The translations under genes were made by a program, and so were the position numbers. Below are positions 37,609-41,488 of a stretch of 64,000 nucleotides of DNA, in pieces. The notes under the pieces were generated by a model. The model did not search any database. It was given only the letters and a program-made list of their open reading frames with translations, and was not told where the DNA came from. Where the stretch lies: the NCBI GenBank assembly GCA_900299195.1, contig OMIX01000064.1:32109-96108 (forward strand), read 5' to 3'. Positions within the stretch are counted from its first letter, which is position 1; each line of letters starts with the position of its first letter. This DNA is from Deltaproteobacteria bacterium. GTDB taxonomy: Bacteria > Bdellovibrionota > FAC87 > UBA2466.

Positions 37609-38607
37609 TTAATAACACACCCAGATCTGTTGGGCTTTATCGGGCAATCGAAGCACCGTTTCTGGGCGCTTTCCTGAATCTTTAGACCACTTAAGAATCT
37701 GTTTGTTTTCTCCTCCAAGAATCGATCGGACAGCCAAATAAATGGCATCTTCATGACAAGTCATGGAATCCACCAGAAGATTGGTGTCTAGATCCAACCC
37801 CGAGTGACTGACCGATGACTCCAGAAGTTTCTCCAAAAAGCTGTAAACAGGAACAGTGTAAGGCATGGTGGGAATATCCCTAGCCACCCACACATTACCT
37901 TCGCGATCCAAACAACTATCGAAAAACAATCCCCGATCTTTCCATTGATAACTATCTTCAATGGTCCAATGACTTGAAATTTTTTTTATTTGAGGTGAAT
38001 AAGTGTGTTGAGGGGTTGTCATGGAATACCCCAACCACAATGTTCCTGTGGACTCATTTAAAATAACCTTGCTTGCCCCCCAAAGTTCACTCCGAGTTTC
38101 TACCGTTAGCTCATTAATCACTTGTCCCTTCTCATCTAACCGAGACAACCACAAGTCCTGCTTACTTCCACTTCTAGCCCCTTGATTGAGAGTCCAAAAA
38201 TTATCGGAAGATAAGCGGCCGATTCTTTTTAAATAAGCTCCCCCAGGATGGCTCAATTCAGAGACAAGCTCTCCTTCACTATTCCAAAGATGGACCTTTT
38301 TAAAATCGCTGCTTAAAGAAAAAAACTGATTATTTTCGATTTCAGAAATGAGCGTTCCGGAAAACTCTCTCTCGGATTCTAAATATCCCCTACGGTAGCT
38401 TGAGAGTTTTAGTCCCTTGTCGGAAGTCACCCAAAGTCGGCAAGCACTTTTGTCAAAAACCCAACTCAAAGGTTCTATCCCGGTCTTAACAACAGGAGTT
38501 TTATTTTCATTCTGAAAGAGAACATAATTCTCTCCCACCACCACCAGATCTTTAGCGAAAAGAAATGGAACCCACAAAAACAGAGTAAAATATTTCAATT
38601 GTGTCAT
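37609..38607 (-). CDS. Hypothetical exported protein, possibly beta-propeller
   Basis: Signal-like N-terminus and repeated short beta-rich WNSEG/LWLSR/LWLGY segments. Confidence 0.5.
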   Translation of the reverse strand: MTQLKYFTLFLWVPFLFAKDLVVVGENYVLFQNENKTPVVKTGIEPLSWVFDKSACRLWVTSDKGLKLSSYRRGYLESEREFSGTLISEIENNQFFSLSSDFKKVHLWNSEGELVSELSHPGGAYLKRIGRLSSDNFWTLNQGARSGSKQDLWLSRLDEKGQVINELTVETRSELWGASKVILNESTGTLWLGYSMTTPQHTYSPQIKKISSHWTIEDSYQWKDRGLFFDSCLDREGNVWVARDIPTMPYTVPVYSFLEKLLESSVSHSGLDLDTNLLVDSMTCHEDAIYLAVRSILGGENKQILKWSKDSGKRPETVLRLPDKAQQIWVCY

Positions 38608-38642: not shown

Positions 38643-38670
38643 TTGCCAAGTTAAACAGACAAATTATACT
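38643..38670 (+). promoter_or_regulatory. Sigma70-like promoter of the 48-aa basic ORF
   Basis: TTGCCA (38643-38648), 16-nt spacer, TATACT (38665-38670). Confidence 0.6.
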
Positions 38671-38719
38671 AAGGGTCTTTACTGGATAACAAAGTTAAAG
38701 TTCGAACAAGGAGACCCAA

Positions 38720-38866
38720 ATGGCAAAAAGAAAAACGGCTAAAAAGAAGGCGCAAAGAAAAGCTAAATTAAGAAGAGGAAGACAGCAGCAACGCCAAAAT
38801 CCAGCCCTTGCCCGACGCCGTAAAGCCAAGAAAAAAATGCGCGTCAAGAAAATGCGTCGAAAATAA
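38720..38866 (+). CDS. 48-aa highly basic small protein (missing from ORF track)
   Basis: ATG at 38720 behind AAGGAG; translation MAKRKTAKKKAQRKAKLRRGRQQQRQNPALARRRKAKKKMRVKKMRRK; 14 Lys + 12 Arg, no Asp/Glu; promoter and terminator flank it. Confidence 0.85.
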   Translation: MAKRKTAKKKAQRKAKLRRGRQQQRQNPALARRRKAKKKMRVKKMRRK

Positions 38867-38890
38867 CTTAAAGGTTATTTCCTGATTTCA

Positions 38891-38915
38891 AGGGCTCCCT
38901 CGGGAGCCCTTTTTT
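38891..38915 (+). terminator. Rho-independent terminator
   Basis: AGGGCTCC-CTCG-GGAGCCCT followed by TTTTT. Confidence 0.9.
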
Positions 38916-39082
38916 CATTTCATCCTTAGTCGCCCTCGCCTCATCTTATGCCCCACATAGCTCGAGCCAGCTTGAATAGTCCCTTTTCTCCCCTAAATAG
39001 CTAGAAAAAGCGGGTTTTTTTATATCTCGTCATTGACCTTTTTAGAAGGGATCCCATACTCTCATATGTAAGGTGGTCGAAT

Positions 39083-41488
39083 ATGGACGGAACAACCAAA
39101 AATATAGATATCCCAGAACTTATCCCGGTTCTCCCTGTACGAAATACCGTGCTTTTTCCCAATACCGCAGTGCCTTTGATTGTAGGAAGAACGAAAAGTA
39201 TCAAAACGGTGAGACAAGCTCAAAAAATGGGGGATTTGCTTCTTATTGTCACTCAAAAAGACCCCTCAAAAGAAAAACCTGAAACTCAAGATCTGTATAG
39301 TGTCGGCGTTGTTTGTTTGATCTCTAAAATTACACACCTTGAAAAAGAAAGTTTACAAATTGTTGCCAACGGTCTTTTTCGTTTCCAAATCACTGAACTC
39401 GTTGAGCATGAGGGATATTTAGCGGCTCGAGGTTTTCAACTGCCTGAAATTGCTTCAACCGACACTGAAAGGGCTGAAGCTTTAGCGAACGAAATTAGGC
39501 AAATCGGCAAAACCATCCTCACTTTGTCGGGTACTCCCGGCGCCGACGCTTTGATTAAACTCATCAACCAAATTGAAGCCCCAGCACAATTGGCCGATTT
39601 GGGTTGTACTTTTATCCATCTTAACACTGCCTCCAAACAGAAACTTTTAGAGATTTCTGATTTAGAGGAAAGGCTCAATGTACTTCTTTCTGAGATGATC
39701 AGAGAGAAGGAAAAGCTCATGTTACAAAATGAGATCCAGAACAAAATGATGGATCGCTTAACGAAAGATCAAAGAGAACAGCTTTTAAGAGAACAATTGA
39801 AAACCATTTCGGAAGAATTGGGCGAAGAAAGTAAATCCAACGATGGAATGGCAAAAAAAATTGAAGAAGCCGGATTTCCAGAAGAGGTCCTTAAGATCGC
39901 TCGAGAAGAACTTAAGCGCCTCAATGCTATCCCTAAGGCTTCTCCCGAGCATCATGTGATTAGAACTTACTTGGATTGGCTCTTGGCAGTACCCTGGTCT
40001 AAAACCTCAGGAACTCCGAGTGATCAAATTAATCTTCAAGCCGCTCGAGAAATTTTAGAAGCCGAACATTTCGGAATTGAAAAAGTTAAAAAGAGAATTC
40101 TGCAGTTTTTGGCAGTAGCCAAACTCAAGAAAGATATGAAGGGGCCGATTCTCTGCCTTGCGGGTCCCCCAGGAGTAGGAAAAACGAGTATTGCTCAATC
40201 GATGGCTAAAGCCCTTGGTAGAAATTTTGTTCGTATCAGTCTAGGTGGGGTACGGGATGAAGCTGAAATTAGAGGTCACCGAAGGACCTATATTGGAGCT
40301 ATGCCTGGAAGAATTATTCAGGCCATGAAAAGGGCCCAAGTCAAAGACCCTCTGATTTTACTTGATGAAATTGATAAATTAGGAAACGATTTTCGAGGAG
40401 ATCCTTCTTCGGCTTTGCTAGAGGTTTTAGATCCCGAACAAAATCATACTTTTGTCGATCACTATTTAGATGTTCCCTACGATCTTTCCAACGCTTTTTT
40501 TGTGACCACTGCCAACATGCTGGAAACTATCCCGCCTGCTTTACGAGACAGGTTGGAAATTATCGAAATGAGTAGTTACTCCAAGCTAGAGAAGATTGAA
40601 ATTGCAAAACGGCATCTCATTCCCAAAGTACTATCTGATCATGGAATTGCTGCTGAAACCCTGAAGATCACCGATGAAGCTCTAGGGCATGTCATAGAGT
40701 CCTACACTCGAGAGGCCGGGGTTAGAAATCTGACTCGAGAATTGGCGCATCTGTGCCGAAGTGCGGCCGAACAGTTGGCCGCAGAAAATCCACCCTCCTC
40801 AATTACTGTTCGAGAGAAGGACATTGAATCCATTTTAGGACCTCAAAAGTTATTTCCAGAAGTCGTTGAGTCCGAAGTTAAACCTGGAATTGTGACGGGC
40901 TTAGCATGGACTCCGGTCGGTGGGGAAATTCTTCAAATTGAAGTGGCTCGAATGGAAGGAAAAGGAGGCCTCACCCTAACTGGCCAGTTAGGTGATGTCA
41001 TGAAAGAATCAGCCCAAATAGCTCTAAGCTTACTGCGTTCGCAGATTGGAAAATCATTAGAGATCAAGTTTGACCAATCGGACTTCCATATTCACGTTCC
41101 GGCTGGGGCGATCCCCAAAGATGGGCCATCGGCAGGGACCGCAATATTTTTAGCTTTAGCAAGCTTACTTCAAAATAAACCTGTTTCCTGCAAATTGGCT
41201 CTGACAGGGGAAATCACCTTGCGTGGGAATGTTTTACCCGTCGGTGGAATTAAGGAAAAGGTCATTGCAGCCCACCGAGCTGGAGTGACCACTGTACTAA
41301 TTCCTGAAAAAAATGCGGGGGATCTAAGAGATGTCAGCGATGAAGTGAAGACCCACATGACTTTTCATCTAGTCAAAGACATTTCCCAAGTGCTCACGTT
41401 AGCGGGTTTGGAAAATTTTGGATTTACCAAAAAGCCGTTGGCAGTAGCTGCATCTACATCAAATGATCATCCCACCATGGCTAACTAA
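39083..41488 (+). CDS. lon: ATP-dependent protease Lon
   Basis: IPVLPVRNTVLFPNTAVPLIVGR; CLAGPPGVGKTSIAQSMAKALGR; DGPSAGTAIFLALASLL catalytic region. Confidence 0.98.
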   Translation: MDGTTKNIDIPELIPVLPVRNTVLFPNTAVPLIVGRTKSIKTVRQAQKMGDLLLIVTQKDPSKEKPETQDLYSVGVVCLISKITHLEKESLQIVANGLFRFQITELVEHEGYLAARGFQLPEIASTDTERAEALANEIRQIGKTILTLSGTPGADALIKLINQIEAPAQLADLGCTFIHLNTASKQKLLEISDLEERLNVLLSEMIREKEKLMLQNEIQNKMMDRLTKDQREQLLREQLKTISEELGEESKSNDGMAKKIEEAGFPEEVLKIAREELKRLNAIPKASPEHHVIRTYLDWLLAVPWSKTSGTPSDQINLQAAREILEAEHFGIEKVKKRILQFLAVAKLKKDMKGPILCLAGPPGVGKTSIAQSMAKALGRNFVRISLGGVRDEAEIRGHRRTYIGAMPGRIIQAMKRAQVKDPLILLDEIDKLGNDFRGDPSSALLEVLDPEQNHTFVDHYLDVPYDLSNAFFVTTANMLETIPPALRDRLEIIEMSSYSKLEKIEIAKRHLIPKVLSDHGIAAETLKITDEALGHVIESYTREAGVRNLTRELAHLCRSAAEQLAAENPPSSITVREKDIESILGPQKLFPEVVESEVKPGIVTGLAWTPVGGEILQIEVARMEGKGGLTLTGQLGDVMKESAQIALSLLRSQIGKSLEIKFDQSDFHIHVPAGAIPKDGPSAGTAIFLALASLLQNKPVSCKLALTGEITLRGNVLPVGGIKEKVIAAHRAGVTTVLIPEKNAGDLRDVSDEVKTHMTFHLVKDISQVLTLAGLENFGFTKKPLAVAASTSNDHPTMAN

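Follow-up and report, generated by a model that had tools for sequence, protein, structure and literature searches.

A short gene of the window (the whole stretch of 64,000 nucleotides that was analysed) encodes a strongly basic protein, here called KR48, which is conserved throughout one GTDB class and is probably a small protein of the ribosome, or of its assembly, peculiar to that class, judging from its sequence, its predicted fold and the analogy with small ribosomal proteins (r-proteins) of other lineages. KR48 is a real gene under very strong purifying selection. Its position and those of the surrounding elements are given in Table 1.

Table 1 Features of the KR48 locus and of the adjacent lon gene, in window coordinates.
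Feature	Position	Strand	Evidence
Sigma-70-type promoter TTGCCA-16-TATACT	38643..38670	+	10/12 matches; both hexamers kept in five genus g1 genomes
Ribosome-binding site AAGGAG	38708..38713	+	Sequence; conserved in genus
KR48 gene (48-aa basic protein)	38720..38866, stop included	+	Orthologues in 13/15 class genomes; strong purifying selection
Intrinsic terminator AAGGGCTCCC-TCGGGAGCCCTT + T-run	38890..38915	+	Stem-loop at 38890-38911, then T-run
Separate lon promoter TTGACC-16-CATACT	39033..39060	+	Promoter scan; also precedes lon in G009, G010, G012, G013
lon protease, conserved neighbour	39083..41488	+	Family match, neighbourhood comparison

The protein (MAKRKTAKKKAQRKAKLRRGRQQQRQNPALARRRKAKKKMRVKKMRRK) carries 14 lysines and 12 arginines, which amounts to 26 basic residues out of 48 (54%), and no acidic residue at all, exactly as the preliminary description of this DNA had it; the computed pI is at the ceiling of the calculator. 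The window contains, over its six frames, 156 ATG-initiated ORFs of at least 40 codons; the next most basic of them reaches 23% K/R, so that KR48 stands apart from the distribution rather than at its tail. A whole-genome search found one copy in the window's assembly. Nei-Gojobori counts between the window and its congeners gave a pS of 0.69-0.76 and a pN of 0.05-0.09, corresponding to a pN/pS of about 0.07-0.13 within the genus, while the mean across all pairs was 0.25, with pS saturated there. The ORF is therefore conserved in its relatives with a ratio far from 1, and it is this conservation at the protein level that establishes its coding status.

A profile (A1) built from 12 orthologues was searched in 15 genomes of the window's class, and orthologues were found in 13 of them, although in one (G005) the gene is split over two contig ends, with the promoter stretch on contig C293. 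Of the two genomes without a match, G001 has an orthologous lon (86% identical) lying 250 bases from a contig end, at about the place where KR48 would be expected, and G008 is a 73% complete genome containing distant lon paralogues only. As the former is a contig break and the latter a missing region, no class genome in which the locus is assembled lacks KR48. It can be added that G001, G008 and G014 each contain several lon paralogues of about 30% identity, and that neither G014 nor G008 showed a lon closely orthologous to that of the window. The orthologues are 47-53 residues long and contain no low-complexity repeat. Outside the class, no convincing match was obtained in the 369 genomes of the phylum, which is probably Bdellovibrionota; the weak ones (E 0.0015-0.05) are partial stretches, several of them with stops, and were rejected as orthologues. 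Beyond the phylum, the distribution is given by a scan of public genome contigs, in which at least two loci were found, both in MAGs, one titled Deltaproteobacteria and the other Proteobacteria. Searches of viral, phage and plasmid collections gave no relative, two of these searches being weakened by a low-complexity filter. Groundwater and lake samples are the apparent sources of the loci L020 and L021.

Nothing credible was found when the members were compared with Pfam, NCBIfam, PHROGs and PADLOC, nor did searches of the PDB by sequence, profile and fold give any match, r-proteins included; the AlphaFold2 model had no Foldseek match. KR48 represents a new protein family, absent from the libraries searched; its kind, most likely that of the accessory r-proteins or ribosome-assembly proteins, is already known. 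That the protein is unannotated, as the preliminary description had it, is supported, but the term orphan used there fails in that the family spans a class rather than a single genome.

The percent identity of KR48 to each relative tracks that of bL34 (96 versus 92 for G004, 88 versus 86 for G007, 86 versus 76 for G009, and 72 versus 65 for G010), and is higher than for lon and murI, which lie at this locus too. The bS21 proteins of the same genomes are on the whole better conserved. Across the clade KR48 is conserved at an r-protein-like rate, level with bL34 and on the whole below bS21. Of the 22 basic columns of the alignment, 17 hold to either K or R, with one exception at most. Among the non-basic columns, 11 (T6, A7, A11, G20, Q22-24, Q26, P28, A31 and M40) keep their residue in 11 or more of the 12 sequences. 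The conserved K/R choice, together with the GRQQQRQ[ND]P segment and M40, which are conserved in the family, may indicate that the protein docks onto a single structured RNA. AlphaFold2 models the protein as a pair of basic helices, residues 7-26 and 28-47, with a break at N27; the mean pLDDT is 92 and the pTM only 0.50, and proteins of so basic a composition are commonly predicted to be helical.

The known small ribosomal proteins were each considered as a possible identity for KR48. bL34 resembles it in being small and basic and in carrying a LARRRxKxxK-like stretch. KR48 has neither a PF00468 match nor the KRTYQPS start, its z score in a composition-controlled test was -0.3 (the bL34 control being an E. 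coli-type sequence), and the canonical bL34 gene is found at another place in all 15 class genomes (C98 in G000). Likewise, there is no match to PF00444 (bL36) or to PF01165 (bS21, z -0.1), and the genes for both are located elsewhere in these genomes, so the earlier statement that the protein is neither bL34 nor bL36 is borne out. A bS21 match over the cut-off is present in 14 of the 15 class genomes, the exception being G007, which is 97% complete. KR48 as bTHX was also rejected, as it has no PF17070 match; the bTHX and bS22 (PF08213) profiles gave nothing over cut-off in the class. The possibility raised beforehand, that an HMM would assign the protein to a known small ribosomal protein, was thus followed with these profiles and gave no match. 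bL37 and bL38 are lineage-specific accessory r-proteins that were missed by annotation, as is proposed for KR48, and PDB profile and sequence searches gave no match between them and KR48.

KR48 also resembles bS22/mS38 (AURKAIP1/COX24 domain, PF08213), which are likewise tiny, 55-65% basic, folded as a bent helix, often unannotated and patchy in their lineage distribution (PMC10618245, PMC10085706). KR48 could accordingly be imagined as a divergent true homologue, placing its C-terminal KKRM..KK motif in the h44/h45/h27 pocket. The strings KKRMRVKKMRR and KKRMRNKKHS do locally resemble KRMSKKKHRK and the KKRMRR of eL41, and PF08213 matches over cut-off are absent from the class but genuine in family f14 of the phylum. 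However, the profile scores of KR48 are not above those of composition-matched shuffles (z -1.3 and -0.3), against which the striking motif also loses its value as a sign of homology, and the MGSV[IV]KKRRK start is missing. bS22 has 33 residues and begins with MGSVIKKRRK, whereas KR48 has 47-53 and a GRQQQRQ[ND]P core, with no alignment signal above composition. The composition-controlled tests of KR48 against bS22, mS38, eL41, bL34 and bS21 were all null, while the positive controls scored highly (z 8.7 for the f14 bS22 and 9.7 for human mS38) and the G014 KR48 gave a z of 10.7 against its own family profile; the bS22, mS38 and eL41 references used are letter-for-letter identical to PDB chains. 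The absence of bS22 from the class is not special, since it is undetected in nearly all of the remaining phylum as well. Among the 369 phylum genomes, bS22 (MGSVVKKRRKKMSKHKRRMWRRR...) was over the Pfam cut-off in L047 and L048 (genomes G038 and G031) only, both of family f14, where the protein is a true bS22 (MGSVVKKRRKKMSKHKRR...). Homology to bS22/mS38 is regarded as very improbable. A functional analogy may nevertheless hold, because eL41, which occupies the bS22 pocket, also fails the same test (z 0.8). eL41/eS32 shares with the KR48 orthologues a short basic helix and the KKRMR string, and differs in having 25 residues and one helix, in being eukaryotic/archaeal, and in giving no significant score against KR48.

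The promoter, ribosome-binding site and terminator are all where the preliminary description placed them. Promoter-like elements are more frequent in the region than expected by chance (4 observed versus 0.7 +/- 0.8 in shuffles), while the terminator count by itself is not (1 versus 1.0). The TTGCMA...TATAST hexamers and AAGGAG align in all five genus genomes having the stretch (that of the window and four others), and terminators equivalent to that of KR48 but differing in their stem sequences are present in G002, G003, G004, G010, G012 and G013, the window's genus and genus g6 both retaining a stem-loop and T-run downstream of the stop codon. Both promoter and terminator are supported by this retention among relatives. 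An Rfam suhB match at 38858-38924 is below the gathering score and is probably just the KR48 terminator. The self-contained transcription unit that had been described applies to the window's genus and, for the terminator, to g6, but other genera have no terminator, and in G007, which belongs to another genus, only 19 bases separate the KR48 stop from the lon start; it is a genus-level arrangement and not a property of the family.

In all family f1 genomes whose contig extends far enough, KR48 immediately precedes lon. In the sister family f2 (G014) it adjoins instead a RecQ-type helicase gene, identified by reading the ORF. The promoter-like element before lon (TTGACCTTT...CATAnT) shows striking conservation from genus to genus (window, G009, G010, G012 and G013), and could be a promoter devoted to lon or to the heat-shock response. 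The gene upstream of KR48 (37609-38607, minus strand in the window) is divergent from it in the window and in G004, and its counterparts are codirectional with KR48 in G006, G007, G009, G012 and G013. Its product is fast-evolving (25-35% identity), has a sub-threshold Reg_prop match, and keeps its place next to KR48 in much of the family.

This neighbourhood bears on two other explanations of KR48. It could be a regulatory RNA-binding protein, an RNA chaperone or a transient factor that is not stably bound to the ribosome, for example one linked to Lon or to stress, as the adjacency to lon throughout f1 and the near-operonic spacing in G007 would suggest. In the window, however, KR48 and lon are distinct units, since lon has a promoter of its own, and the KR48 terminator stands between them; moreover, the function of KR48 is not tied to lon, given that its neighbour in G014 is recQ. 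Such a role is thus considered unlikely. The short, Lys/Arg-rich ORF with a terminator upstream of lon could also be taken for a leader peptide or a chance ORF without protein function, but the protein is conserved while synonymous change is saturated, lon is driven by its own promoter, and KR48 survives apart from lon in G014. The pN/pS values and the differing G014 neighbourhood already contradict this explanation, whose probability is next to nil.

The preliminary description took KR48 for a nucleic-acid-binding protein, either histone-tail-like or ribosome-associated. The type is supported by the sequence, and of the two functions the ribosome-associated one appears favoured, because individual columns of the alignment keep both their non-basic residues and their preference for K or R, and the overall conservation equals that of bL34. 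A nucleoid-associated polycation of protamine or histone-tail type, which would compact DNA, perhaps while the cell is resting or dispersing, would agree with 54% K/R, zero acidic residues and the helical prediction. If the phylum is indeed Bdellovibrionota, basic chromatin proteins matter there, an example being the Bdellovibrio histone Bd0055/HBb (PMC10627809). Yet K and R are not freely exchanged, residues such as Q22-Q24, Q26, P28, G20 and M40 are conserved, the length range is narrow and free of low-complexity repeats, and a helix-break-helix, as predicted here, differs from the histone fold. Merely neutralising DNA would not need such specific conservation, which counts against a plain polycation. 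Bd0055/HBb is also a small protein of nucleic-acid-binding type, possibly from the same phylum; KR48 differs from it in its two predicted helices and its lack of any acidic residue, and was rejected as a Bd0055-like histone, the model having two helices where the histone fold has three. An H1-like or protamine polycation, with a low-complexity tail of interchangeable K and R, was rejected on the 17 retained K/R columns and 11 conserved non-basic ones. A role in the nucleoid is accordingly unlikely.

The preferred reading, that of a ribosomal or ribosome-assembly protein, is strengthened by the presence of KR48 in every class genome with the locus assembled, and the lack of a recognisable bS22 or bTHX in the class also agrees with it. 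Against it stand the location of the gene beside lon or recQ, and not in an r-protein operon, the lack of sequence or structure matches to any r-protein, the null composition-controlled tests, the low pTM, the better conservation of bS21 and the rarity of bS22 in the phylum at large. The anatomy of the protein, as far as sequence and model can tell, fits a peptide folding on one structured RNA, for which rRNA is an abundant and universal candidate. Borrelia, C. acnes and mycobacteria provide precedents, having small r-proteins with 55-65% basic residues that came to be recognised only via cryo-EM density: Borrelia bS22 (61% K/R) and bL38 were unannotated before the structure, and C. acnes provides bS22 and bL37 (PMC10618245, PMC10085706). 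By analogy with bS22/mS38, eL41, bL37 and bL38 in other lineages, the two basic helices would insert into an rRNA groove, which they would neutralise and brace, while the GRQQQRQ[ND]P segment and M40 would make specific contacts. rRNA as the target, the site bound and stable residence as a ribosome subunit are what we infer. More tentatively, KR48 might be a previously undescribed r-protein unique to one class, at an rRNA site that elsewhere is protein-free or filled by an unrelated protein, rRNA having then captured a basic peptide convergently.

The way in which ribosomes acquire additional proteins is still a matter of debate (PMC10764239), and it was only unexplained cryo-EM density that brought several lineage-specific r-proteins to light. 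KR48 offers a testable case, being a short conserved gene that is universal in one class and undetected in sister lineages, and it illustrates that a class-wide core function can sit in a gene below ORF length cut-offs.
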